Source of the DNA: Desulfoferula mesophila | GTDB lineage: Bacteria > Desulfobacterota > Desulfarculia > Desulfarculales > Desulfarculaceae | NCBI RefSeq assembly: GCF_037076455.1 | Contig: NZ_AP028679.1 | Location: 1,813,501-1,877,500 of the forward strand | Direction: 5' to 3' | DNA length: 64,000 nt | Shown: positions 22,115 to 41,141 of the stretch, piece by piece | Numbering within the stretch: position 1 is the first letter of the stretch | Layout of the letters: every line of letters starts with the position of its first letter | Notes under the pieces: model-generated | Databases searched by the model: none | The model's input: only the letters and a program-made list of their open reading frames with translations | Told to the model about the DNA's origin: nothing | Made by a program: the position numbers and the translations under genes

Positions 22115-22350
22115 TCCATGTTTTCATCTGGAAAAGCAAAATATTAGCCGCAAGCGACAGGGGAGCCCACCCGGCTAAGGAACCAGGCGATTTCTATCGG
22201 ATAGTCATACCCCAGGCGCTGAGAGGTGACGGCAGGCAAGGCGGATCACCACAAAAATAAGCTACACCTAAAAAACTATTGACAGCCTAATATGGAGGTG
22301 TTAACTAATTACGCCATAGTCACGGCTGTTCAGGGGACAAACTGACCATC
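22115..22350. other. Intergenic region between fdhA and the feo operon
   Basis: No credible gene is seen in this A/T-richer gap between divergent units. A TTGACA at 22279-22284 on the plus strand could be a -35 box for the feo operon with a poor -10 near 22302. CGGCAGGCAAGGCG at 22230-22243 repeats 14 bases found inside the palindromic element at 9510-9523. Confidence 0.35.
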
Positions 22351-22371
22351 GCCCAAAAGGGCAATTTTTTT
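22351..22371 (+). terminator. Short terminator-like hairpin before the feo operon
   Basis: GCCC-AAAA-GGGC (22351-22362) is followed by AATTTTTTT. If transcription starts upstream, it would act as an attenuator for the feo operon; otherwise it is a weak stop signal. The four-bp stem is short, so support is modest. Confidence 0.4.
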
Positions 22372-22381
22372 GGCCGATAAG

Positions 22382-22414
22382 TTAGGATAACCTAATTAAT
22401 TAGAGGTGGCCTAA
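22382..22414 (+). promoter_or_regulatory. Metalloregulator-like boxes before the feo operon
   Basis: TTAGGATAACCTAA (22382-22395) is an inverted repeat TTAGG-N4-CCTAA, and TTAG-N6-CCTAA follows at 22400-22414 over the ribosome site. The half-sites resemble those of DtxR/IdeR-type iron repressors. Position directly before iron-uptake genes supports iron control, but the spacing is not the classical 19-bp box. Confidence 0.45.
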
Positions 22415-22415
22415 A

Positions 22416-22847
22416 GTGAAAGACGCGGCATCACCGTTCAAAGGCAGCATGAGTTCACCCTGCAACGCCATTCATCGTCAAAAACCATGCGGAAAAAAGG
22501 TCTGCGCATCCTGCCCGTTACAGGGCCGCAAGGTGATGATTATCGGCGGGCTGGATCGTCTGGAACCCAGTTATCGCGAAACGGTGAGCCGTTTAGGCGG
22601 CAAATGCGAGTTTCACACCGGCAAGCTGCGTAGCGGTCACCGCCGCCTCAGACAAAGGGTCGCCAAGGCCGACTTGGTGGTTTTCATCACCTCAATCAAC
22701 TCCCATGCCGCCCTCAACGCCGTCAAAACGGAATGTAAACGTTGCGGCAAACCGTTCTGCGCCCTGCGCCAGACCGGCTGCTGTTCTCTGGAAAAGACCC
22801 TTAGAAGCCTGCCCGAAGAGCCCTTCATCAACTTGCAAACCAAATGA
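22416..22847 (+). CDS. DUF2325 domain protein, first gene of feo operon
   Basis: Small protein (143 residues) with a Cys-rich N-terminal part (CNAIHRQKPCGKKVCASCPL near 16-35) and a C-terminal DUF2325 domain: KVMIIGGLDRLEPSYRETV near 39-57, ADLVVFITSINSHAA near 85-99, and CKRCGKPFCALRQTGC near 107-122. DUF2325 proteins have no firm biochemical role. Eight or more cysteines suggest metal or Fe-S binding. Start is GTG at 22416 with GAGGTG seven bases before. Its stop overlaps the feoA start (ATGA), so it is coupled to ferrous iron uptake and may sense iron. Confidence 0.72.
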   Translation: MKDAASPFKGSMSSPCNAIHRQKPCGKKVCASCPLQGRKVMIIGGLDRLEPSYRETVSRLGGKCEFHTGKLRSGHRRLRQRVAKADLVVFITSINSHAALNAVKTECKRCGKPFCALRQTGCCSLEKTLRSLPEEPFINLQTK

Positions 22848-23125
22848 ATAACCACAACCGAGCCAAGCGGGAGAGACGAGCAGTGGAAAATTTTGAAACC
22901 CTACGCATGCTGCCCAAAGGTGGGCGCGCGGTGGTCAAGAGGATATCCGTGGGCGGCGAGATGGGCCGGCGCATCCGGGACATGGGCATTGTGCCGGGAA
23001 CCGAGTTCATGGTCATGGGCCGGGCGCCGCTCAAGGACCCGGTGGAGATCAAGCTAAAGGGCTACAACCTGACCCTGCGCAACAACGAAGCGGACCACAT
23101 TTTGGTCCAGGCGGTGGAAGGCTAG
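22844..23125 (+). CDS. feoA: Ferrous iron transport protein A
   Basis: SH3-like cytoplasmic partner of FeoB. The FeoA fold is seen after a basic 17-residue extension: LPKGGRAVVKRISVGGEMGR near 23-42, MGIVPGTEFMVMGRAPLKDP near 47-66, VEIKLKGYNLTLRNNEADHI near 67-86. Length 93 is slightly above the usual 75-85. It overlaps the preceding gene by four bases and is followed two bases later by feoB. Confidence 0.9.
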   Translation: MNNHNRAKRERRAVENFETLRMLPKGGRAVVKRISVGGEMGRRIRDMGIVPGTEFMVMGRAPLKDPVEIKLKGYNLTLRNNEADHILVQAVEG

Positions 23126-23127
23126 GC

Positions 23128-25266
23128 ATGGCTTCGGAAAAGATAACCGTCGCCCTGGCCGGCAACCCCAACGCGGGCAAGACCTCCCTGTTCAACGCGC
23201 TCACCGGTGCCCGGCAACACGTGGGCAACTATCCCGGAGTGACGGTGGAGAAAAAATGGGGTCACGTTTCCCTGGGGGGCCAAGAGGTGGAAATAGTCGA
23301 CCTGCCCGGCGTCTACAGCCTCACCGCCTACTCCCTGGAGGAGCTGGTGGCCAGGGATTACCTGGTCCAGGAAAAGCCCGACGTGGTGGTGGACGTGGTG
23401 GACGCGGCCAACCTGGAGCGCAACCTCTACCTGGCGGTGCAGTTGCTGGAGTTGGGCGTGCCGCTGGTGATTGCCTTGAACATGGTGGATGTGGCTGATG
23501 GCCGGGGCCTGAAAATCGACCCCGACAAGCTTGGCCGCCTTTTGGGCGTGCCGGTGGTGCCCACCGTGGCCCGCCGGGGCAAGGGTGTAGAGCGCCTCTT
23601 GGACGAGGCGGTGGAAAAAGCCCGCCGCCAAAAAACCTGGCGTCCCCTGGAGCTTTCCTATGGGTCGGACGTGGACCAGGCCCTGGGGGAGCTTACCGCC
23701 AAGTTGGGCGGCGTCGGCCCGGCCTTGTCCCCCCTAAGCCCCCGCTGGGTCTCGATCAAGCTTCTGGAAAACGACGCTGAGGTCCAGAAACAAATCTCCC
23801 GGGAACTCCAGCTGGACGGGCAGCTGGACCCTATGCGCCATAAGCTTGCCGAGCATCTGCGGCTCACCATGGACGACGACCCGGAAGGGGTGATCGCCGA
23901 CTACCGCTACGGCTTCATCGGCGGCATCTACCGCCAGGCGGTGCAGGAGACCAGGGCCCATCGCCTGGAGCTTAGCGACCGAATCGACAAGGTGCTCACC
24001 AACCGGCTGGTGGGGCCCCTGATCCTGCTGGCCATACTTTACGGCATCTACCAGTTCGTCTTCTGGGCCAGCGAGGCGCCCGTGGGCTGGTTGGAAGGCC
24101 TGTTCGGCTGGCTGGGCGGTATGGCCGAGGCGTCTCTACCCGATGGCTTCGTCAAATCCTTGATCATCAGCGGGATCATCGATGGCGTGGGCGGCGTGCT
24201 GGGTTTCGTGCCCCTGATCATGTTCATGTTCTTCGTCATCGCCGTTTTGGAGGACACCGGCTACCTGGCTCGGGTGGCCTATCTGCTGGACCGGGTGCTG
24301 CGGCTCTTCGGCCTGCACGGCAACAGCGTCATGGCCATGATCGTCAGCGGCGGCATCAGCGGCGGGTGCGCGGTGCCCGGGGTGATGGCCGCCCGCACCC
24401 TTAAGGATCCCAAGGCCCGTTTGGCCACCATTCTCACCGTGCCCATGATGAACTGCGGCGCCAAGCTGCCGGTGTACGCCCTGCTGATCGGGGCCTTTTT
24501 CGCCGCCCAGCAGGCCCAGATGCTCTTCGCCCTCACGCTGGTTTCATGGGGCCTGGCTCTCGTCGCCGCCCGCGTTCTGCGCTGGACGGTGCTCAAGGGC
24601 GACACCGCGCCCTTTGTCATGGAACTGCCGCCTTACCGCCTGCCCACCCTGCGCGGCCTGCTCATTCACACCTGGGAGCGCACCTGGCAGTACATCAAAA
24701 AGGCGGGCACCGTGATCCTGGGCATCAGCATCCTGATGTGGGCCCTGATGAGCTTCCCCGCGCTGCCCGAGGAGCGGGCCGCGGCCTGGGAGGCCAAGGC
24801 CGAGGCGGCCGTGACCGAAGAAGCCCGCCAGGAGATCGAGTACCAGCAGGGGCAGGATGAATTGGCCTATTCCGTGGCCGGCCGCCTGGGGCGAGCCCTG
24901 AACTATGTCACCGCCCCCCTGGGTTTCGACTGGCGCACCAACGTGGCCCTGGTGGGAGGCTTCGCGGCCAAGGAGGTGGTGGTCTCCACCCTGGGCACCG
25001 CCTACAGCCTGGGCGAGTTGGACCCCGAAGACACCGGCGGTCTAAGTGAGCGGCTGGCCAAGGAACCGGGATGGAATCCCCTCAAGGCCTTTGCCCTCAT
25101 GCTCTTCGTCATGATCTACGCGCCCTGCTTTGTCACCGTGGCGGTAATCCGCAACGAAACCGGCGGTTGGAAGTGGGCCCTGTTCGCCATGGCCTACAGC
25201 ACCGGCGCGGCTTATGTGATCGCTCTGCTGGTCTACCAGGGCGGCAAGCTCTTGGGATTGGGGTAG
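23128..25266 (+). CDS. feoB: Ferrous iron transport protein B
   Basis: GTP-dependent inner-membrane Fe(II) importer. The N-terminal G domain has G1 GNPNAGKTSLFN at 12-23, G2 and switch I VGNYPGVTVEKK near 32-43, G3 DLPGVYSL near 59-66 and G4 NMVD near 118. A helical spacer runs to about 285, followed by the membrane part with the two gate repeats (GGISGGCAVPGVMAARTL near 408-425 and the VVSTLGTAYSLGE region near 620-632). Length 712 is normal. Start ATG at 23128 is two bases after feoA. Confidence 0.96.
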   Translation: MASEKITVALAGNPNAGKTSLFNALTGARQHVGNYPGVTVEKKWGHVSLGGQEVEIVDLPGVYSLTAYSLEELVARDYLVQEKPDVVVDVVDAANLERNLYLAVQLLELGVPLVIALNMVDVADGRGLKIDPDKLGRLLGVPVVPTVARRGKGVERLLDEAVEKARRQKTWRPLELSYGSDVDQALGELTAKLGGVGPALSPLSPRWVSIKLLENDAEVQKQISRELQLDGQLDPMRHKLAEHLRLTMDDDPEGVIADYRYGFIGGIYRQAVQETRAHRLELSDRIDKVLTNRLVGPLILLAILYGIYQFVFWASEAPVGWLEGLFGWLGGMAEASLPDGFVKSLIISGIIDGVGGVLGFVPLIMFMFFVIAVLEDTGYLARVAYLLDRVLRLFGLHGNSVMAMIVSGGISGGCAVPGVMAARTLKDPKARLATILTVPMMNCGAKLPVYALLIGAFFAAQQAQMLFALTLVSWGLALVAARVLRWTVLKGDTAPFVMELPPYRLPTLRGLLIHTWERTWQYIKKAGTVILGISILMWALMSFPALPEERAAAWEAKAEAAVTEEARQEIEYQQGQDELAYSVAGRLGRALNYVTAPLGFDWRTNVALVGGFAAKEVVVSTLGTAYSLGELDPEDTGGLSERLAKEPGWNPLKAFALMLFVMIYAPCFVTVAVIRNETGGWKWALFAMAYSTGAAYVIALLVYQGGKLLGLG

Positions 25267-27479: not shown

Positions 27480-28136
27480 TCAGCCCAGCAGGTTTTGCTC
27501 CGCGCTTCCTTTGAGCCCGGCCACCAGCCGGTGGGCCAGGACCATGCCCAGAATGGCCATGCACTCCATGTCCAGGTAGCGCGAGGCATCCTGCTGGAAC
27601 AACACCGAGCACTGGGCCGGGAAAGGCTCTTCCTCGTCGTTGTAAAGCAGTAACAGGGGCACCCGGGGCAGGGCAGGCAGGCGCAGCACCAAGTCGTAGG
27701 ACACCCCGGCATCAAAATCCCGACCGCCCCAACTGGCGCATTGTGTGGCCAGCTTGTCGCCATGGCCCGCGAACTCCCGGGAAATCAGACGCTCCACCGT
27801 ATTGGCATATCCCTCCACAAAAGGCGCGGCGTCGGGGAACTGCTTGTAGGCCACCCACTCTTGGCCCGCGCCGGGGCCTCCGGCGTTTTGCAGTAGATAC
27901 TTGGCCAGCACCACGCTGGCGGCGTGGGAGGGCTTGTCGCCCTGGGGATCGGCGAAGCCCTCGGACAGGCTCACCCGGTGGGGCTGGCCGAAAAAGGGAA
28001 TTACCGCAGTCTCGCCATCCAGTTCCACCCCCAGGACGGCGAAGTCGATGCCCTCCCAGGCCTCGCCCAATTGGGCCAGGTAATCAACCAATATCTCGCC
28101 GAAAACGGCCCGGGGTTGCGGTTGCTCGTTGCTCAT
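27480..28136 (-). CDS. DUF3786 domain protein
   Basis: A 218-residue soluble protein matching the DUF3786 pattern: DFAVLGVELDGETAVIPFFG near 31-50, SHAASVVLAKYLLQNAG near 69-85, FEGYANTVERL-type helix near 110, and YDLVLRLPALPRVPLLLLYN near 147-166 followed by an Asp/Glu-rich DEEEPFPAQCSVLF block. The family occurs in anaerobes and has no proven function. Start is ATG at 28136 (MSNEQPQP); upstream in-frame sequence is low-complexity and overlaps the next gene. Last gene of the TonB/FmdE operon. Confidence 0.75.
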   Translation of the reverse strand: MSNEQPQPRAVFGEILVDYLAQLGEAWEGIDFAVLGVELDGETAVIPFFGQPHRVSLSEGFADPQGDKPSHAASVVLAKYLLQNAGGPGAGQEWVAYKQFPDAAPFVEGYANTVERLISREFAGHGDKLATQCASWGGRDFDAGVSYDLVLRLPALPRVPLLLLYNDEEEPFPAQCSVLFQQDASRYLDMECMAILGMVLAHRLVAGLKGSAEQNLLG

Positions 28137-28156
28137 GGCGCTTCTACCCATACCTG

Positions 28157-28423
28157 CTACTGTTCTTCGACCAGCTCGAGGGCCAGCGACCGGGCGCTGC
28201 CCGCGCGCACGCACATGGCCACGGCCGCCACCGCGCCCATCTTTTCCTCGCTAATACCCTGGTCTTTGGCTTGTTTGATAAAGCGCTCGGCGCAGTGGCG
28301 GCAGCGGATGGCCAGGGAGGCGCACAGGAAGGCCAAGGTGGTGGTCTCCTCGTCCAACACGCCGTTGTCCTTGACCGTGGCCAAGAATTTCTCGAAAGCC
28401 TCGTTTTGTTCGGGGGAGATCAT
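28157..28423 (-). CDS. Carboxymuconolactone decarboxylase/AhpD-like small protein
   Basis: An 88-residue single-domain CMD-family protein. The redox motif is CRHCAERFI near 40-48, followed by GISEEKMGAVAAVAMCVRAG near 56-75 as in AhpD-type helices. Such proteins act as disulfide reductases or as decarboxylases; the CxxC supports a redox role. It sits between the tetrapyrrole-methylase-like gene and the DUF3786 gene, 20 bases from the latter. Substrate unknown. Confidence 0.8.
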   Translation of the reverse strand: MISPEQNEAFEKFLATVKDNGVLDEETTTLAFLCASLAIRCRHCAERFIKQAKDQGISEEKMGAVAAVAMCVRAGSARSLALELVEEQ

Positions 28424-28518
28424 CGCATCACTCCACTGGGGTTTTGATCAACACCCTAAGTCAAGCACGAACCGCCCGGACGCGAATCACCCGACCGGGC
28501 CATGCGCGGCCCTAGGAG

Positions 28519-29463
28519 TCAATTTTGCTCCCCCGCCGACTGGGACATGGCCGGGGAACGCTGATGGGCCGCGCTGAAAGGTTTGCCCTCCAGAAAACGG
28601 CCGACGAGCAGCAGGCCCATGAAGCGCTCGGGATCATCGGCCAACTGGCCGGGCATGCTGTCCAGGGTGCCCCGCAGCACCCGCTGCCGCTCCAAATCGC
28701 CGGCCCAGAAAACCACCGCGCAAGGCAGGTCTCCGGGCAGGTGGCCCCGCAATATCTCGAACAGGCGGGGGGCGTCGGTCAGGGCCATGTAGAAAATGGC
28801 GCTGTGCTCCTGCTTGCCCAGCAGGGTCAACAACTCCTGGGCCTCGGGGCTGGGCTCGTCCAGGGACATGTCGGGCTTGAGCCCTTGGCCGGTGAGCACG
28901 AAAGGCGCGGCTTGCAGCAAAAAGCGGGCATCGTGGGCTGGCAGGATGCTGGCCTGCAATGCGGCCATGGCTGCGGCGTCGGCCCCCATGCCCGGTATCA
29001 CGATCACTTCCTGGGGCTTGAGCAACTCGGCATAGCTTTGCCCCGGCCCGAAAAGGCAGGGATTGCCGAACTCCAGCAAGCCCACGTCCATGCCCCGCTC
29101 CAGCAAGTCCCGTATCTGTCCCAAGCGTTTTTCTACCAGCCGATCCCGTTCCTGGCGAAACAGCGCCGCCTCCTCGGGGCTCAGGCTATTCACCTGGCGG
29201 CCTTGGTAATCCCAAAATCCCGCCCAGGGGTCGAACGCTATGGGGATGTCGCCGATGAACTCCGCGAACATCCGAGCCTGGCGAGCCGGGGCCAGGATCG
29301 CGTCCATGCGCTGGATGGTCTCCAGGGCCTGGAGGGTGGCGGTCTGGGGCCCGCCGGGGCCGCAGCCGATCAAATAGAAAAAGCCGTGGTTGAAGTTGGG
29401 CGAGCCAGCCGGCGCGTCTGCCTCGCCTTTGGGCCTCCGCCGGTTTCCAAGGAGAGTTGACAA
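28519..29463 (-). CDS. Tetrapyrrole-methylase-family protein (SAM-dependent)
   Basis: A 314-residue protein with the tetrapyrrole (corrin/porphyrin) methylase fold. The nucleotide loop FFYLIGCGPGGPQTATLQAL is near 28-47, VGLLEFGNPCLFGPGQSY near 127-144 (the conserved GDP is GNP here), VIVIPGMGADAAAMAAL near 155-171 and LPCAVVFWAGDLERQRVLRG near 253-272. True cobalt-precorrin methylases are about 250 residues, so this is a divergent member with a longer N-terminus. Start is TTG at 29463 with GAGGAG seven bases before. The neighbouring TonB/FecCD uptake genes suggest a tetrapyrrole or metal-chelate substrate. Confidence 0.75.
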   Translation of the reverse strand: MSTLLGNRRRPKGEADAPAGSPNFNHGFFYLIGCGPGGPQTATLQALETIQRMDAILAPARQARMFAEFIGDIPIAFDPWAGFWDYQGRQVNSLSPEEAALFRQERDRLVEKRLGQIRDLLERGMDVGLLEFGNPCLFGPGQSYAELLKPQEVIVIPGMGADAAAMAALQASILPAHDARFLLQAAPFVLTGQGLKPDMSLDEPSPEAQELLTLLGKQEHSAIFYMALTDAPRLFEILRGHLPGDLPCAVVFWAGDLERQRVLRGTLDSMPGQLADDPERFMGLLLVGRFLEGKPFSAAHQRSPAMSQSAGEQN

Positions 29464-29476
29464 GATGAATCTCCTC

Positions 29477-29498
29477 GCCCCGCCCGGTTGGGCGGGGC
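29477..29498 (-). promoter_or_regulatory. GC-rich hairpin directly before a ribosome site
   Basis: A perfect nine-bp stem GCCCCGCCC-AACC-GGGCGGGGC ends at the base before GAGGAG, the ribosome site of the tetrapyrrole-methylase-like gene. It could protect the downstream message after cleavage or tune translation. There is no T tract, so a terminator role is unlikely. Confidence 0.5.
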
Positions 29499-29547
29499 CT
29501 TGCAACTTTGGAGGCAGGCGATAGGGAGAGGGGTATCGTCGGGCCGT

Positions 29548-30153
29548 CTATCCCTGCTTGGCGAAGCAGGGGATGCACAGCGTGTGCCCTTCCAGGCGGC
29601 GCGTGCGCGACTCCATCACCGATTCGCCGCACTGTTCGCACACCAGGCTGGTGAGGATGCGGGCCGAACGGGGCATGGGCTCGTCGGGCTCCTTTATCTC
29701 GAAGACCTCGGTGATCTCCGAGTTCATGATGTCATCGGTGCGCTCCTGGCGCATCTGCATCAGGCGTTCTTTCTGTTCCGGTTCAATATCACCCTTGAGC
29801 CATTTGCGGTTGAGCTCGGTGAATTCGGAATTCGGGCTGCCCAAGCGGCCTGCGTCCATCACCAGGCGCACCCCTTTGCCGTCGCTGCGGCGGTAGAAGG
29901 TAAAGGCCAGCTTGCCGTGGTCCCGGTAGAGCAGGTTGCCCTTGCCGAAAGTGCAGTTGGTCAGCGACTGGATGCCGTCCACCGCGCACATGTCGGTCTC
30001 CACAATGGCCACGATCTCCTCGTCATCGGACTTGCCCATGTGGTTGAGCACGTACTCGCCGGCCCTCAGGCCGATGGCCAGACCGGGGCACCAGTGGCCG
30101 TGGAAGTCCACCGCTTTTTCAATTTGCTCAGGGGTCAGTTGGCATCCAGCCAT
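29548..30153 (-). CDS. FmdE-family protein with C-terminal zinc finger
   Basis: 201 residues. The FmdE domain (1-130) shows DFHGHWCPGLAIGLRAGEY near 16-34 and IVETDMCAVDGIQSLTNCTF near 50-69, which holds the conserved Cys residues; the C-terminus is a TraR/DksA-like finger CEQCGESVMESRTRRLEGHT with the closing CIPC near 193-196. FmdE proteins were named from the methanogen formylmethanofuran dehydrogenase cluster, but in bacteria they often sit near metal or cofactor uptake genes and have no proven role. Start ATG 30153 follows AGGAGG. No formylmethanofuran genes are present here. Confidence 0.85.
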   Translation of the reverse strand: MAGCQLTPEQIEKAVDFHGHWCPGLAIGLRAGEYVLNHMGKSDDEEIVAIVETDMCAVDGIQSLTNCTFGKGNLLYRDHGKLAFTFYRRSDGKGVRLVMDAGRLGSPNSEFTELNRKWLKGDIEPEQKERLMQMRQERTDDIMNSEITEVFEIKEPDEPMPRSARILTSLVCEQCGESVMESRTRRLEGHTLCIPCFAKQG

Positions 30154-30206
30154 GGTCACAGCCTCCTGTGAAAATCCCGTAGGGAAAAGTTGTTCCGTAA
30201 AATCGT

Positions 30207-30821
30207 TCAGGCCAAGGACAGACGCGCCTTGAGCAGATAGCCCAAACCATCGTCCACCAGGACTTCCGTATCCAGCCCCGCCTTTTCTATCATACGCCGC
30301 ATTTCCCGGGGAGGGGGCAGCATGTCCTTTTCCACCACCGTGCCCGCCTTGCGGTGGGTGTCGTTGATCACCGCGCTGGGCATGAAATGCACCACCGTGA
30401 GCACCCCTCCCGGCTTTAAAAGCCTTACCAAGTGGGCCAGGGCCGCAGGCTGATCATCGAAATGGGGGAAGACCTGGTGGCACACCACCCGGTCGAAGCT
30501 GTTGGCCGGGGCCTGGAATTCCTCCAGCGCCATGCGCTCCACCCGCACCCAGGACAGGCCGGCCACTCGCCGGTGGCAGGCTGCCACCATGGCCGCGCTT
30601 ATATCCATGGCCACCAGGTGCCCGGCGGGGCCCACCACCTGGGCCAGCACCTGGCTGAGCCGCCCCGTGCCGCAGCCCGGCTCCAGCACCCTCTGCCCAG
30701 GCCCCAGCTCGCTTTGTTTGAGCAGGCGCTCCAGCTTGGGACGCTCCACTTCGCCGTATTCATCGGCCGCCCAATCGGCTCCCGCCTGGGCGTCGAAAAA
30801 TTTGGCCTTGTCTCGGTTCAT
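30207..30821 (-). CDS. Class I SAM-dependent methyltransferase
   Basis: 204 residues with Rossmann methyltransferase motifs: VLEPGCGTGRLSQVLAQ near 45-61 (SAM-binding), LVAMDISAAMVAACHRR near 71-87, FDRVVCHQVFPHFDDQPAAL near 113-132 and LKPGGVLTVVHFMP near 139-152. Substrate is not predictable from sequence. Its ATG overlaps the stop of the binding-protein gene by four bases, so it is made together with the importer. A role in modifying the imported ligand, or in releasing its metal, is inference. Confidence 0.82.
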   Translation of the reverse strand: MNRDKAKFFDAQAGADWAADEYGEVERPKLERLLKQSELGPGQRVLEPGCGTGRLSQVLAQVVGPAGHLVAMDISAAMVAACHRRVAGLSWVRVERMALEEFQAPANSFDRVVCHQVFPHFDDQPAALAHLVRLLKPGGVLTVVHFMPSAVINDTHRKAGTVVEKDMLPPPREMRRMIEKAGLDTEVLVDDGLGYLLKARLSLA

Positions 30822-31927
30822 TTGGCCGCTTTCTTCAAAAAAGACGGCGTGCTGCCCAATGGACCGTAGCGCTTGGCCATGGTGGCGTAAACCGGCTTGC
30901 CTACCAGGAACACGTAAATCTCGTCGGCCTTGGCCGCAGGATTTACGTCTTGGAAGGCCTCGGGCTCGAGAATCTTGCCGATGGCGTAGGAGTCGGCCAA
31001 GGCAGTGCCCAGGTTGGTGGTGTACCAGTTGAAGGGATGCAGCAGGTACACCTTGCCCTCCTGAAAGGCGCGCAGGTTCTTGTAAAACTCGGGCTTCTTG
31101 TCGTAATCCGCCGCCACCAGGGCCAGCCCTCCGCCGTCCACGAAGACATACTCCGGGTTCAGGCCCAGAAGCTGTTCCTTGTCCAGCATGAGGTGGCCGG
31201 TCTTGCCTTGGGTGGCGGCCAGGTTCTTGGCTCCCACCCAGCGCAAGGGAAGATAGTTGGGGTCGGTGCTTTCCAGGCCGTGGGTCCCCTTGAAGCCGAT
31301 GCCGCCCACATAGGCGCCGGCATGCCGTTTGGCTTCTTGGCCCCGCCGTCCCAGGTCTGCTTGCCAGCCTTCCAGGCGCTTGACCACCTCTTGGGCCCGC
31401 TGGTCCTTGCCCAAGATGCGCCCAGCCAGGAGGATGGAGTCTAGAACCACCTTGTCAAAGGAGGCGAAGGGGCCATAGGAGAGCACCACCACCGGGATGT
31501 TGAGCAGCGATTGCAACTGGTCGGCCTTGGCCTTTTGCAGGTAGGTGGCGAACACCACCTGGGGCCGCACCTTGAGCACCCCTTCCAAGTCGGGCAGGTT
31601 GTTGATGGCCGGGACGCCGCCGGGGGTGATGGCCGGCAGCTTGCCCAGTGCGGGCGTGGCGTAGTAGTAGGGCCGCCCTCCGGGGAAGCGCTTTTCAAAG
31701 GCCTCGATGCCCACCACCTTGTCCTGGGCTTTCAGATATACGATCAGACGCAGGCAGCCCGGCCCCAGGCACACGATGCGCGAGGGATTCAGCGGCACGC
31801 TTACTTTGCGGCCGGTCATATCGGTTATCTGGAGGGTGTCCGCCGCCCTTGCCAGAGAGGGAAGGGTGAGGAGCATGAGACCCGCTAGAATGCAGATAAA
31901 CAGACGTTTGCTGGTTGCCGGATACAT
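30818..31927 (-). CDS. Periplasmic binding protein of FecB/BtuF type
   Basis: Substrate-binding protein of the FecCD importer, 369 residues. Signal peptide at 1-28 (RLFICILAGLMLLTLPSLARAA) without lipobox cysteine. The two lobes show DMTGRKVSVPLNPSRIVCLG near 35-54 and VFATYLQKAKADQLQSLLNI near 134-153 with the long linking helix that marks this class, then NLAATQGKTGHLMLDKEQL near 236-254 and VYLLHPFNWYTTNLGTALA near 300-318. Ligands of the class are ferric siderophores, haem, cobalamin and other chelates. Start is ATG at 31927 behind AGGAGA. Confidence 0.88.
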   Translation of the reverse strand: MYPATSKRLFICILAGLMLLTLPSLARAADTLQITDMTGRKVSVPLNPSRIVCLGPGCLRLIVYLKAQDKVVGIEAFEKRFPGGRPYYYATPALGKLPAITPGGVPAINNLPDLEGVLKVRPQVVFATYLQKAKADQLQSLLNIPVVVLSYGPFASFDKVVLDSILLAGRILGKDQRAQEVVKRLEGWQADLGRRGQEAKRHAGAYVGGIGFKGTHGLESTDPNYLPLRWVGAKNLAATQGKTGHLMLDKEQLLGLNPEYVFVDGGGLALVAADYDKKPEFYKNLRAFQEGKVYLLHPFNWYTTNLGTALADSYAIGKILEPEAFQDVNPAAKADEIYVFLVGKPVYATMAKRYGPLGSTPSFLKKAAK

Positions 31928-31938
31928 CTTGTCTTCTC

Positions 31939-32739
31939 CTAGGAGGAAGCCTGGGTTGCGGGGCTGGCTTGCTTGCGGGGAGTCGCCGCGCGGGGCACCA
32001 CCACCCGGTAGCCCTCCACTTCGGCCAGCAACGCCTCCACGCCGTAAACTTGCCGAATTATTTCGGCGGTCAATTCTTCGGGGGTTATCACGGAGTGCAC
32101 CTTTCCCTGCTTCATGAGCACCATGCGGTCCAGGTAGCGCAGGGCCAGGTTGATGTCGTGCAGACACACCGCCGCGCCCAGCCCCTGGCTACGCACCGCC
32201 CGCATGAGCAACTCCATCACCTCCAACTGGTTACGCAGGTCCAGGTTGCTGGTGGGTTCGTCCAACAGCAGCAGGTGGGGCTCCTGGGCCAGGGCCCGGG
32301 CGATGACCACCTTTTGGGCCTCCCCGCCGCTCAGGCTCGATACCGGGCGCAGGGCCAGGGGCTCCAGGCCCATGTGCCCGAGCACCCTGGTGACCACCTC
32401 CAAATCATGCGAAGTGGCTTGCCACTTGATGTGGGGCTTGCGTCCCAGAAGCACCGCGTCGAACACGCTCAGGGGCTCGCGCTCCTGGCTCTGGGCCACG
32501 TAGCCGATGAGCCGGGCGATCTGCTCGCCGCCCAGCTTGCTCAGGTCGTGGTCCTCCACCATGACCACGCCCTTTTGGGGGCGCAGGATGCGGTTGAGGC
32601 ATCTGAGCAGGGTGGACTTGCCCGCTCCGTTCACCCCCAGGATGCCGGTGATCTCGCCGTGCTCCAGGGACAGGCTGAGCCCGTCCAGCACCGGCCGGCC
32701 GTTATAGGTGAAGAATAGGTCTCGGGCTTCCAGGGTCAT
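31939..32739 (-). CDS. FecE/BtuD-type ABC transporter ATP-binding protein
   Basis: ATPase of the importer, 266 residues. Walker A GVNGAGKST near 36-44, signature LSGGEAQKV near 139-147, Walker B LLLLDEPTSNLD near 160-171 and the switch His in CLHDINLA near 194. The C-terminal tail carries an AEVEGYRVVVPRAA extension. Start is ATG at 32739, overlapping the permease stop by four bases and behind GGGGAGA; the frame runs on upstream but only as read-through of the permease gene. Confidence 0.92.
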   Translation of the reverse strand: MTLEARDLFFTYNGRPVLDGLSLSLEHGEITGILGVNGAGKSTLLRCLNRILRPQKGVVMVEDHDLSKLGGEQIARLIGYVAQSQEREPLSVFDAVLLGRKPHIKWQATSHDLEVVTRVLGHMGLEPLALRPVSSLSGGEAQKVVIARALAQEPHLLLLDEPTSNLDLRNQLEVMELLMRAVRSQGLGAAVCLHDINLALRYLDRMVLMKQGKVHSVITPEELTAEIIRQVYGVEALLAEVEGYRVVVPRAATPRKQASPATQASS

Positions 32740-33875
32740 AGCCGTCTCCCCTTGAGCAGCAGGTAGAGGAACAGGGGCGCGCCCATGAAGGAGGTGAGCA
32801 CCCCCACCGGCATGCTGCCCGAACCCAGCAACATGCGGCCCACCGTGTCGGCGGCCAACAGCAGCACCGAGCCCACCAGGCCCGAACAGGGCACCAGAAA
32901 GCGGTGGTCGCCGCCCACCAGGCGGCGGCTGATGTGAGGGGCCAGCAGGCCCAGGAAGGCGATAATGCCGTGGAAGGCGGTGGCCAGGGCCACCAGCAAG
33001 GAGGCCAGGAACATGCCCAGCAGACGCAGGCGGGTGACGTGCACCCCCAGGGCCTGGGCGGTTTCCTCGCCGGCCAGCAAAGCGTTGAGATCCCAACGGC
33101 GGCGCAGGAAGTACAGGCTGACCCCCAACGTAGCCACAAAAAGCAATGTAATCTCGCGCCAGTTGGAACGGGCCACGTCGCCGAAGGTCCAAAAGACCAC
33201 GGTGGCGATCTCCACCTCGGTGGCGAAGTATTGGATAAGGATGGTGCCGGACATGAACAACGAGGACATGGCTACCCCGGCCAGGATGACCGCCGAGGCG
33301 CTCATGTGGCGCAGGCGGGCCAAAAGCAAAATCACCGCGGTGGCGGCCATGGCCCCGGCAAAGGCCAGCAGGGTTACCGCGTAGAGGCTGGAAAACATGA
33401 AGTCGCCGGAACCGGCGCTGTACAGGGCGCTGGTGCTCACCGCCCCGGCCCCCAGGAACACGATGGCGAAAGCCGCGCCAAAGGCCGCGCCGTGGCTCAT
33501 GCCCAGGGTGAAGGGCGAGGCCAGGGGGTTGCGCAACAGGCTCTGGGTGACCAGGCCCGAGAGGCCCAGGCCCCAGCCGGTGACGATGGCGGCCACGATG
33601 CGCGGCAGACGGATGTTGAACACCACCACCGACTGGGCTCCATCGCCTTGGCCCAGCAGGATCAGCAGCACCTTGTAGGCCGATAGGTCGTAGGCCCCCA
33701 CGGCCACCGCCTGCAAGGCCAGCAGGATGGTCAGCGCCACAAGGGCGGCCAGGATCAGGTAGTGCCTGCGTAGACCCGCCCCGTAGCGGGAGATCAGCTC
33801 GGCCTCCAGGTCGCCGGGCAGGGCGGCGGGCAATGGGGCGTGATGGTGTTTCATAAATTGATGGTCCGTCTCCAT
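32736..33875 (-). CDS. FecCD/BtuC-type ABC transporter permease
   Basis: A 379-residue permease with about ten transmembrane segments. Family blocks: NIRLPRIVAAIVTGWGLGLS near 106-125, LASPFTLGMSHGAAFGAAFA near 137-156, and FLGLLAPHISRRLVGGDHR near 304-322. A longer, His-rich N-terminus (MKHHHAP) precedes the first segment; ATG 33875 is taken as start, with ATG 33854 an alternative. It shares four bases with the ATPase gene. The ligand class matches the TonB receptor encoded just upstream. Confidence 0.9.
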   Translation of the reverse strand: METDHQFMKHHHAPLPAALPGDLEAELISRYGAGLRRHYLILAALVALTILLALQAVAVGAYDLSAYKVLLILLGQGDGAQSVVVFNIRLPRIVAAIVTGWGLGLSGLVTQSLLRNPLASPFTLGMSHGAAFGAAFAIVFLGAGAVSTSALYSAGSGDFMFSSLYAVTLLAFAGAMAATAVILLLARLRHMSASAVILAGVAMSSLFMSGTILIQYFATEVEIATVVFWTFGDVARSNWREITLLFVATLGVSLYFLRRRWDLNALLAGEETAQALGVHVTRLRLLGMFLASLLVALATAFHGIIAFLGLLAPHISRRLVGGDHRFLVPCSGLVGSVLLLAADTVGRMLLGSGSMPVGVLTSFMGAPLFLYLLLKGRRL

Positions 33876-33924
33876 CCAGCGGTCAACAGGGCGGGGCCGC
33901 CGACCAACGGCTCCGCCGCTTGGT

Positions 33925-35841
33925 TTAAAAAGTGATCTCCAGGCCCAGCATGCCGCTGATGCCGGGCATGGGATAGCCCGGCTTGTATTCGTAGTCCTGG
34001 TTGGTGAGGTTTTCGCCCGCGACGAAAACCTTCATGTCCACCTGGTCGATGGGGAAGCTGTAGCTCACCTTGGCGTTGAACAACAGGTAACCGTCCACCG
34101 TGTTGCGCGCGCCTTGGTAACGAGTGTCGCTAACGTAGTAGTCATCCACGTACAGGCCGTCCACGCTGGCCAACCAGCCGGGCCAGAAGCGCCAGTTGAC
34201 TCCGGCCGAGCCGCTCCACTCCGGGGCGTAGGGGGTGTCCTCGGGGCTGCGGTCCAGGTAGGTGGCGCCCACGAACAGGGCCAACTCATCCACCGGGTAA
34301 AGGGTAATGGTGCCCTCCAAGCCGCGGTTGTCGAACTCGCCGAGGTTTTCCCAGTGGGGCGGGCCGTACACCAGCACCAGGCGGTCGTTGCCCTTGTCGT
34401 GGAAGAAGGTGAGGTCGGCTTTTATCCACGAGGCGAACTTTTGGCTGACCCCCACTTCAAAGTGGTTGAGTTCCTCGGGCGTCAGGTTTTCCCACAATTC
34501 GTTGTGCCAAAAGAGCTTGGACTGCTGCACCACGTACACCCCGGGGTAGTTGTAGGTGTGGGCGTAGTTGGCGTGCACCTCCGTGTCCTGGTAGCGCACG
34601 ATGGCCCCGAACTGGTAACCCAGCTCGGACTCGAATTCGCTGTGGCCAAAGTAGCGGGCGCCCGCCGAGGGAATGATGGTGAAGTCCCCCAGCTTGAACT
34701 CCTGGCTCAGGGCCATGTAGGGCTGCGACAGGCTGAAGGTCTCCTTTTGGCCGCCGTTTTGAGCCCCCGTGGCGCTGATGACCAGCACCTTGCCGGACAC
34801 GTAGTCCTGGTCGAAGCCCAAGGTAAGGGCGCCGCCTTCCCACATGGTCAGAGTCTGGCTGATGCGCACTCCGTAGTTGCCGTAGTCGGTGCGGGTGTCG
34901 CTGCCGTCGCTCTGTTCCTGCCAATCCAGGTGTCCGTCGTCCCAATAGGCCTTCACAAAGCCGTAGCCCCAGTCGTACTTGTTCTCCAGCTTGAGGATGC
35001 TGATAGCGTCCCTGGTGTTGAAGTTACCGTCGCTCAGTTCGGGATGATCGATGGGGCCGGGGTCTTCGGACCAGTTTTGGGTGTAGTTGAGCAACAGGCT
35101 CAGGCGCAGGTGGGAGTCGAAACTATAGCCCACGTTGCCGTAGTAGTTTTGCAGCGAGCCTCCCGCGTTTTCCCGCTGGCCGTCGCTGTAGCGGTAGCTC
35201 TGCACCAGGTAGTAGTCAAAGCCGCCGATCTTGCCGCCGGTTTCGGCCACCTCCGTCAGCGTGTCAAAGGAGCCGCCCGCCAGCTTGCCGTGGGTGTAAA
35301 AGCCTTCGTCGCGCATGTATTTGGGCAAGATGTTCACCGCCGCAAAGGCGTTGTTGCCAAAAAGCACCGGCTGGGCTCCCTTGTACACCTCGATGGCGTG
35401 CACGTTGTCGATGCTCAGCATGTCCATCACCGAGTGGTTCCACACCCCCACCACCATGGGGATGCCGTCGATCATGGTGACGATGTCCTGCCCCGGACGC
35501 CCGGTGCCCATGCCCCGGATAAAGATGGCTCCGCCCGCGCCGCCGCCGAAAGAGCCCACCGGGTTGTGGCGGCTGATCACCACGCCCGGGGTGCGGCGCA
35601 AAGCCGAGGGCAGGTCGCCCGCGTTCATGTCGTCAATTTGTTGCTCGCTCACCACAGTCACTTGGCTGCCCAGGCGGTTGACCTGGTCGCCTTCGATTAC
35701 CGGCGAGGACACCACCACCACGTCCGATGTCTTTTGCGCCTTTGCTTCGCTGCTATCCTCGGCTTCGGCGATTGCCGCCGGCAGACACAGGCTTATCCCC
35801 AGCGCGGTCATCGCGCACAACCTCGCGATACGGCTAACCAT
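33925..35841 (-). CDS. TonB-dependent outer-membrane receptor
   Basis: A 638-residue gated barrel. Signal peptide at 1-26; a TonB-box-like stretch SDVVVVSSPVIEG near 38-50; the plug domain (55-165) with DLPSALRRTPGVVISR, GAIFIRGMGTGRPGQDIV and AIEVYKGAQPVLFGNNAFA; then a 22-strand barrel ending in GMLGLEITF with terminal Phe. Size resembles BtuB/CirA-type receptors. It is the first gene of the importer operon, 49 bases before the permease. Ligand is unknown: ferric siderophore, corrinoid, haem or another chelate. Confidence 0.92.
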   Translation of the reverse strand: MVSRIARLCAMTALGISLCLPAAIAEAEDSSEAKAQKTSDVVVVSSPVIEGDQVNRLGSQVTVVSEQQIDDMNAGDLPSALRRTPGVVISRHNPVGSFGGGAGGAIFIRGMGTGRPGQDIVTMIDGIPMVVGVWNHSVMDMLSIDNVHAIEVYKGAQPVLFGNNAFAAVNILPKYMRDEGFYTHGKLAGGSFDTLTEVAETGGKIGGFDYYLVQSYRYSDGQRENAGGSLQNYYGNVGYSFDSHLRLSLLLNYTQNWSEDPGPIDHPELSDGNFNTRDAISILKLENKYDWGYGFVKAYWDDGHLDWQEQSDGSDTRTDYGNYGVRISQTLTMWEGGALTLGFDQDYVSGKVLVISATGAQNGGQKETFSLSQPYMALSQEFKLGDFTIIPSAGARYFGHSEFESELGYQFGAIVRYQDTEVHANYAHTYNYPGVYVVQQSKLFWHNELWENLTPEELNHFEVGVSQKFASWIKADLTFFHDKGNDRLVLVYGPPHWENLGEFDNRGLEGTITLYPVDELALFVGATYLDRSPEDTPYAPEWSGSAGVNWRFWPGWLASVDGLYVDDYYVSDTRYQGARNTVDGYLLFNAKVSYSFPIDQVDMKVFVAGENLTNQDYEYKPGYPMPGISGMLGLEITF

Positions 35842-35903
35842 TCTCTCTCCTCCATGAAAAACCAGCGTGCTGTCTTCATGGTCAGCCCTTTATCGCCTGG
35901 TAT

Positions 35904-35948
35904 AAAAAAAGCCAAAAGGCACCCCGGAGAGCAAATGCCCTCCATGCC
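35904..35948 (-). promoter_or_regulatory. Terminator-like hairpin in the TonB receptor leader
   Basis: On the minus strand a two-part stem (GGCA 35948-35945 with TGCC 35921-35918; GGAG 35943-35940 with CTCC 35929-35926) is followed by TTTTGGCTTTTTTTAT, 62 bases before the receptor start. This has the form of an attenuator or riboswitch expression platform. No B12 box or other known aptamer motif was found upstream of it. Confidence 0.5.
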
Positions 35949-36006
35949 TTCTGGCAATGACTGCTTCGACCCTTGTTTTATCGAGTAACCGACGCCTTCA
36001 AGCGTC

Positions 36007-36047
36007 TACTAATAATAATGAGTAACACTGGCCTGGGTAAGTGTCAA
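36007..36047 (-). promoter_or_regulatory. Possible promoter and Fur-like site for the TonB operon
   Basis: TTGACA lies at 36042-36047 on the minus strand with TACTCA 17 bases on (36019-36024) as a weak -10. The A/T-rich TACTCATTATTATTAGTA (36024-36007) overlaps it, has palindromic ends and loosely resembles Fur sites. A hairpin GACGC-TTGAAG-GCGTC follows at 36005-35990. The rest of the gap 35842-36145 holds no gene. Confidence 0.38.
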
Positions 36048-39914: not shown

Positions 39915-41141
39915 TTAATCGGCAAAGTATTGCATGGTGGCGTTGGGCAGCACCGCCGCCCGGGTGCCGGGGCCGTGGTTTTCGCGCAGCAGCTCCAGGG
40001 TTTGTTCCCAGGTCTTGCTGAAGGTGATGACCTCTGGGTTGGCGAACCAGTCGCCAAAGCCGCGATCAAAGGAGGGGGCCAGGATGATGAGTCGCAGGTT
40101 GTCCGGCAGTTGACGCACCGGGTGCATGCGCCCCCCGTGGGCCCGTCCGAAGCGGCCCAGCAGGTAGTGCACCACCTGGCCCTCGGGCGAGTCGGCGATG
40201 ACCACGACCGTGCCGCCCTGGGGCTTGAGGCAGCCCCGGGCCAGGGCCACGGCGATGGGCATTTCGTTGGCCTTGACAAAGGCGTTGGAAATGACCACAT
40301 CCACGTTCCTGGGGCGGGGGGCGGTGGCGTACCATTCCCCGGCCAGTTCCACCGCCCGGGCGTGGGAGCGGCCGAGCTCCCCGGCGACCACCGCGGCGGC
40401 CTCGCCCCTTTGGTTCACCAGCACGTTCACCGAGAAACTGAGGCCCGCCAGCTCGGCGGCCTCGTCGATGTCCTGGCGCACCAGGTTGCCCGCGAACTTG
40501 CCCAAACCCACCCGCTCGGGCTTCAGGGCCATGACCCGGGTGTGGTGGTCGGCAATGGTGTCGATGTGGGCCAGGCCGGGCATGAGTATCTTGCCGCCCC
40601 CGGAAAATCCGGCATAGGGATGGGCGGTGACGCAGCTGACGGCCACCTTGAGCTCGGCGGCCAGCAGCTCACGGTTGAGGCGCACCTGGGTGCCCAGGCT
40701 GGTGGTTCCTACCGGCTCGCAGTTTTCGTAGCAGTTGTGGTTGAACACCCGGAAGCGCTCCACCACCTCGCGGCCCAGCTTTTTGCGCAGCTCGTGCATG
40801 CTCAGGGCGCCGTGGGTGCCCAGGGCGCACAGGAAAGTCACCGCCTCTTCGGGCACACCAGCGGCGGCCATTTCCGCCAGCAGGAAAGGGGCGAACTGGG
40901 CGACGCGGGTGGGGCGGGTCATGTCGTCGAAGACGATCACCGCCGAGCGCTTGCCCTGGGCCAGCTCCCGCAGGCTAGGCGAGCCCAGCGGAGCGGCTAG
41001 GGCCGCCTCGATCTCGGCCTGGCTCAGGGCCGGGCGCTGGGCTCCGGCCATGGAGCATACCTCCACCCGCCAATCATCGGGCAGGGCGATCTCCAGGGAG
41101 TCGTTTTCGTACCACAGGCGGCGGGGCAGGGAGATACGCAT
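39915..41141 (-). CDS. LarA-like nickel-pincer racemase family protein (DUF2088)
   Basis: 408 residues. The family's substrate loop VIVFDDMTRPTRVAQFAP near 69-86, LCALGTHGALS near 104-114 with a histidine at the LarA His108 position, FNHNCYEN near 133-140 and HPYAGFSGGGKILMPGLAHI near 175-194 with the lysine that carries the nickel-pincer cofactor in LarA. LarA racemises lactate; relatives act on other 2-hydroxy acids. Here it neighbours a GlcDF oxidase and a 2-oxo-acid oxidoreductase, so it probably sets the stereochemistry of the imported hydroxy acid. larB/larC/larE genes for the cofactor are not in the window. Confidence 0.82.
   Translation of the reverse strand: MRISLPRRLWYENDSLEIALPDDWRVEVCSMAGAQRPALSQAEIEAALAAPLGSPSLRELAQGKRSAVIVFDDMTRPTRVAQFAPFLLAEMAAAGVPEEAVTFLCALGTHGALSMHELRKKLGREVVERFRVFNHNCYENCEPVGTTSLGTQVRLNRELLAAELKVAVSCVTAHPYAGFSGGGKILMPGLAHIDTIADHHTRVMALKPERVGLGKFAGNLVRQDIDEAAELAGLSFSVNVLVNQRGEAAAVVAGELGRSHARAVELAGEWYATAPRPRNVDVVISNAFVKANEMPIAVALARGCLKPQGGTVVVIADSPEGQVVHYLLGRFGRAHGGRMHPVRQLPDNLRLIILAPSFDRGFGDWFANPEVITFSKTWEQTLELLRENHGPGTRAAVLPNATMQYFAD

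Follow-up and report, generated by a model that had tools for sequence, protein, structure and literature searches.

A conserved TonB and FecCD importer operon with FmdE in Desulfoferula mesophila, a candidate system for the acquisition of nickel or cobalt chelates

Gene content and organization of the operon

The stretch of DNA analysed here, referred to as the window, covers 64,000 nucleotides of Desulfoferula mesophila (positions 1813501-1877500 of a one-contig genome of 4.48 Mb, numbered G000 in our set, in which L numbers denote loci), an organism to which Desulfarculaceae MAGs are the closest named relatives. The nine open reading frames that an earlier note had observed between 27480 and 35841 are all present and all on the minus strand, with two 4-nt overlaps and intergenic gaps no longer than about 95 nt. 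Gene identities were taken from Pfam, each score lying above the curated cut-off. Ordered from the upstream end, the features are:

35858..36047, minus strand: conserved promoter and structured leader, kept in the window and at L001, L002, L004 and L046
33925..35841, minus strand: TonB-dependent outer-membrane receptor, 638 aa (Plug PF07715, 74.5 bits, cut-off 23.9)
32736..33875, minus strand: FecCD/BtuC-type inner-membrane permease (PF01032, 285 bits)
31939..32739, minus strand: importer ABC ATPase (PF00005, 110 bits; start corrected from sequence, about 32739)
30818..31927, minus strand: periplasmic substrate-binding protein (SBP) of the TM0189 (2etv) clade (PF01497 Peripla_BP_2, 52 bits)
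30207..30821, minus strand: class I SAM methyltransferase (MT; PF13649, 77.5 bits)
29548..30159, minus strand: FmdE protein with a C-terminal zinc finger (PF02663, 152 bits; zf-dskA_traR PF01258, 38.2 bits)
28519..29463, minus strand: TP_methylase-fold protein (TPM; PF00590, 80.7 bits)
28157..28423, minus strand: CMD/AhpD-like protein, 88 aa (PF02627, 37.2 bits)
27480..28136, minus strand: DUF3786 protein (PF12654, 130.8 bits)

Starts were likewise corrected from the sequence for the SBP (about 31927), the DUF3786 protein (about 28136) and FmdE, which begins at 30159 (GTG) or 30153 (ATG), and the probable TPM start is a TTG codon near 29463 that has a GGAG box. The FecCD-type importer is complete, with permease, ATPase and Peripla_BP_2 binding protein all in the operon, and the CxxC motif previously claimed for the CMD protein was found, as CRHC. 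For the receptor, the barrel model PF00593 was not reported at E 0.01, and TonB subfamily models partially match the C-terminus.

The region preceding the receptor gene is laid out as a TTGACA promoter, a CGC-NGAA-GCG hairpin, a terminator-like hairpin with a T-run and then GGCTGACCATGAAGACNGCNCGCTGG, a conserved short open reading frame (MKTARW) that overlaps the receptor's ribosome-binding site. Compensatory changes are seen in the 5' leader hairpin across the window, L001, L002, L004 and L046. A comparison of the leader with Rfam matched no family, and a cobalamin, Moco or NiCo riboswitch upstream of the operon was therefore set aside; a search of the host genome for the leader motif gave no convincing second copy. 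A Fur box in the promoter was also rejected, as the resemblance is loose and is not kept across L002, L004 and L046.

Two further groups of genes in the window may be recorded here. On the plus strand, feoA/feoB and a DUF2325 gene lie at 22250-23140, and the feo upstream region carries a palindrome, TTAGGATAACCTAA, which is like a DtxR-type box and was not seen upstream of the operon. A LarA-like gene (39915-41141, minus strand) lies 4 kb upstream of the operon; it scores best against the LarAH6 family of nickel-dependent malate racemases, with 221 bits where the cut-off is 500.

Conservation of a seven-gene core

All nine genes recur in the same order at L001, L002 and L003, where TPM identity is 73-77%, and the first seven (TonB, FecCD, ABC, SBP, MT, FmdE, TPM) are kept in two congeners of the host (L004, L046) and on a Desulfarculus contig (L007), so that the arrangement goes beyond chance. 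CMD and DUF3786 were not found at these latter three loci within the DNA fetched around each. More distant relatives reshuffle the seven parts: L047 has FecCD-ABC-SBP-MT-FmdE with TonB-TPM 3.5 kb further along, and the order at L052 is TonB-TPM-FecCD-ABC-SBP-MT, with the SBP assigned by Pfam. Given this reshuffling, and with CMD and DUF3786 present in the nearest loci only, the functional unit appears to be the seven-gene core; CMD and DUF3786 look like accessory, lineage-specific additions in the closest relatives. The earlier proposal is thereby upheld insofar as a full chelate-type importer is joined in an operon to cytoplasmic proteins and kept as a block; its extension to all nine genes as a single functional set is not supported, CMD and DUF3786 being limited to the closest relatives.

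The suggested check of FmdE and DUF3786 co-occurrence was run and is uninformative at the level of genomes, since both are common, and a literature search for FmdE with DUF3786 found no report. The AF2 model of the DUF3786 protein (pLDDT 91.5) gave no match in a fold search of the PDB. A host DUF3786 paralogue (L076:9138-9941) is fused to an Fe-S domain (PF04060) and lies close to a metF-like gene.

Nickel and cobalt genes beside related modules

In a survey of 297 Desulfobacterota genomes, the SBP was detected at E 1e-40 or better in 48, of which 23, from ~13 families, carry FmdE within about 4 kb of it (counted from coordinates). We read the neighbourhoods of 40 such FmdE-SBP loci and of 17 TPM loci. 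NikR adjoins the module at L144, L148 and L149, three loci from a single family that do not count as independent cases, and at L164 in another family (217.9 bits at L144 and 176.6 bits at L164, NCBIfam cut-off 105). At L145 the neighbours are CbiM (203.8 bits, cut-off 173) and NikL (103.8, cut-off 100), and at L155 they are CbiM (above cut-off), CbiQ and a NikL-like gene. DUF4198 genes, from a family of which one protein binds nickel with a Kd of 18 nM (PMC12537917), occur at L145, at L162 and at least 10 TPM loci, and the sole DUF4198 gene of genome G161 and the sole one of G102 are at an FmdE or FecCD module. FeoB was seen at 2 of about 63 module loci. Genes of the NikKMLQO/CbiMNQO ECF systems and the NikR regulon (PMC545781) thus adjoin relatives of the module, and none is found in the window operon itself.

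Cobalt fits several of these contexts as well as nickel does, as seen from CbiM and from the cobalamin riboswitch and CbiK at L145 and L176. The CbiK-like cobaltochelatases at these two loci (L145:11631-12650, L176:10112-11179) are N-terminally extended, with cobalamin riboswitches alongside and FmdE modules adjacent. Outside the window's own family, the nearest FmdE homologues belong to NikA/NikB/NikC-like (NikABC/Opp-type) operons (L157, L158, L170, L174, L176); as both NikA-like proteins tested scored below the NikA equivalog cut-off, these may be Opp-type metal or peptide transporters.

The deltaproteobacterial NikR half-site is GTGTTAC, with a spacing of N13/14 and converging or diverging orientation (PMC545781). 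Directly upstream of FmdE at L144, L148 and L149 we found GTGTTAC-N13-GTGT(T/C)A(C/T), and GTGTTAC-N13-GTGTTAC repeats with 0-1 mismatch occur only there; the half-sites are in tandem, unlike the published orientation (PMC545781). With 2 mismatches allowed, NikR-like dyads are no more frequent than in shuffled sequence (14 against an expected 13.9); the claim for NikR sites is therefore based on the three that have one mismatch or none, all placed as expected. NikR control of the window operon was rejected, with no site upstream and NikR_C absent from the host, and an operon in a host without NikR would be regulated differently from its NikR-linked relatives.

FmdE, the methyltransferase and the binding protein

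The window FmdE passes the domain cut-off with its HGHxC motif and cysteines conserved, and H20, H22, C24 and C58 together with the zinc-finger cysteines C174, C177, C195 and C198 are invariant in 45/45 aligned homologues. In the solved crystal structure of an FmdE, the corresponding His2Cys2 site holds mixed Zn/Ni (PMC2954224). The view that FmdE is without a settled function was right; the position of FmdE near metal-ion transporters had been published in 2010, with the metal not named (PMC2954224). The window system resembles those published sets in the His2Cys2 site, the zinc finger and the metal transporter alongside, and differs in adding a TonB receptor, MT, TPM, CMD and DUF3786, as well as the nickel/cobalt context. 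TrmO-like (UPF0066) genes repeatedly adjoin the module (L050, L145, L154, L156, L177), and FmdE-UPF0066 fusions have been reported (PMC2954224). A second host FmdE (L065, G000:C1:1798493) lies near AOR-, MoeA-, ModE-type HTH- and TupB-like genes, all named by eye, suggesting that FmdE paralogues serve different metals.

In the methyltransferase, Cys114, His120, His145 and His156 are invariant in 18/18 homologues; as His120 falls in a region often conserved in the MT fold, a metal role for these residues is a mere suggestion. The SBP matches TM0189 (2etv) at 335 bits and MolA (3psa) at 46 bits, and a MolA-like, molybdate-binding reading of the SBP was set aside because of the weak match to MolA. 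TM0189 is annotated as a putative iron transporter and carries the PDB name of an iron-binding protein. The window SBP is clearly homologous to the binding protein of this TM0189-TM0191-type FecBCD importer; what distinguishes the window version is its coupling to an outer-membrane receptor and FmdE.

An exported family with the tetrapyrrole-methylase fold

The fold of the TPM is well supported, as its AF2 model (pLDDT 88) finds CysG and CbiF as best Foldseek matches at E about 1e-15, and the protein reaches the cut-off of no curated methylase equivalog (best 53.9 bits, cut-off 198). A clear N-terminal signal peptide, scored as a hydrophobic 12-mer with a mean > 2.1, is present in 23/31 TPM homologues, nearly all of which are encoded immediately downstream of the gene for a TonB receptor. 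The window TPM has no signal peptide, nor does its homologue at L017, and in the TPM tree the window clade lacking the signal branches inside the exported family (15-row clade, support 100/100). As no SAM would be expected in the periplasm, the exported homologues are unlikely to be SAM-dependent methylases. Since the window TPM is nested among such forms, its earlier designation as the second of two methyltransferases is doubtful. The most economical explanation is that a receptor partner from the periplasm was brought into the cytoplasm as the window TPM. This protein would then stem from an exported family of TonB partners and probably bind a ligand or a metal rather than act as a tetrapyrrole methylase; its W-rich DPWxGxWDYxGK segment is a candidate contact region. 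A literature search for the TPM/TonB/DUF4198 set found no report.

An in-frame TGA within LPCP-U-DYYWWARC interrupts the receptor gene at eight loci (L047, L049-L055; for example L053:7142-9256), next to exported TPM-type genes; this PCPU selenoprotein type of receptor corresponds to NCBIfam NF049947. The exported form of the TPM is thus a gene neighbour of NF049947 receptors, whereas the window receptor has neither the Sec nor a Cys motif: its mature part is free of cysteine, and PGVY stands in place of LPCPU. A tRNA-Sec lies near the L051 locus, and the host genome also has one.

Nickel requirement of the host

The host encodes a NiFe hydrogenase (708 bits). Searches for CbiM/NikM, NikR and DUF4198, which gave matches in control genomes, found none of these three in the host. 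With the hydrogenase present and CbiM/NikM, NikR and DUF4198 absent, the window operon is a candidate route for nickel or cobalt into this organism.

Discussion

We lean towards the interpretation that the operon serves to acquire nickel (or cobalt) with high affinity in the form of a chelate, and import of bound nickel (or cobalt) rather than iron is the most likely function of its transporter. Judging from genomic context, the chelate would pass the outer membrane through the TonB receptor, be captured in the periplasm by the TM0189-type binding protein and enter the cytoplasm by way of the FecCD/ABC importer. There FmdE may take the metal at its His2Cys2 site, a chaperone role that we infer from the site itself; in the weakest step of the scheme, the MT and perhaps the TPM could bind or act on the ligand and so release the metal. 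Against a nickel or cobalt substrate stand the lack of any nickel marker in the window operon itself, the proximity of feoAB (3 kb away, opposite strand), the restriction of NikR-linked loci to two families and the annotation of TM0189 as no more than a putative iron transporter.

An ordinary ferric-siderophore importer, to which the other genes merely hitch-hike, would agree with the FecCD/TonB architecture, with feoAB 3 kb off in the window and with the name given to TM0189 in the PDB. We consider it improbable, because the seven-gene core is kept in several genera, the recurring markers are those of nickel and cobalt and not iron, and no siderophore equivalog reached its cut-off. Still less probable is the import of molybdate, tungstate or a thio-oxyanion. 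The name FmdE derives from a molybdenum formylmethanofuran dehydrogenase operon, the host FmdE paralogue at L065 lies near AOR-, MoeA- and TupB-like genes (by eye), and MolA HI1472 is distantly related to the SBP; yet the latter relationship is far weaker than that to TM0189 (46 against 335 bits), and no molybdenum or tungsten genes were recognised beside the module, a MoeA query giving no match in the module loci.

Import of a metal tetrapyrrole (cobamide, cobinamide, haem or a nickel tetrapyrrole such as F430 fragments), with TPM and MT binding or modifying the macrocycle, deserves more weight, and we nevertheless regard it as unlikely. The TPM has the fold of uroporphyrinogen/precorrin methyltransferases, BtuC models are the best-scoring for the permease, and a cobalamin riboswitch, CbiK and cobalamin genes adjoin two of the relatives. 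The importer also shares the two-membrane logic and permease superfamily of BtuB-BtuCDF vitamin B12 uptake, but its proteins miss all B12 equivalog cut-offs (TonB-B12 58.7 against 599.7; BtuC 196.9 against 461 and 192.7 against 334), Rfam finds no B12 riboswitch upstream of the window operon, TPM relatives are exported, and the association with NikR suggests sensing of free metal. The comparisons point to nickel or cobalt as the metal and do not speak directly to a tetrapyrrole; the tetrapyrrole or corrinoid that the earlier note had named as its best guess is not supported as stated, with BtuB- and BtuC-type equivalogs far below cut-off. The nickel/cobalt and tetrapyrrole readings would overlap were the chelate to consist of a nickel or cobalt tetrapyrrole.

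Metallophore systems of the CntO/CntABCDF, pseudopaline and staphylopine type combine TonB and ABC uptake of nickel, zinc or cobalt chelates with SAM-dependent enzymes encoded nearby; they use the SBP_bac_5 class of ABC importer, unlike the FecCD class of the window. The importer class is already known, as is the presence of FmdE near transporters. As far as our literature search shows, three things are new: the link of the FmdE-TM0189 module to nickel and cobalt, an exported family of TP_methylase fold associated with TonB receptors, and an operon uniting the two. We tentatively suggest that Desulfobacterota possess an exported, non-enzymatic family of TPM fold that partners TonB receptors, often with selenocysteine, in the capture of nickel or cobalt chelates, and that the window TPM, having moved to the cytoplasm, may have joined a FecCD importer, FmdE and MT in an undescribed pathway for chelate import and release.

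Seen in this way, FmdE, a structurally known orphan family, the TM0189-type SBP and the PCPU selenoprotein TonB receptors would each gain a testable role. The automatic annotation of a sizeable exported family as SAM-dependent methyltransferases is called into question, and a route for nickel is proposed for a hydrogenase-bearing bacterium of the sulfate-reducer type that has neither NikM nor CbiM.
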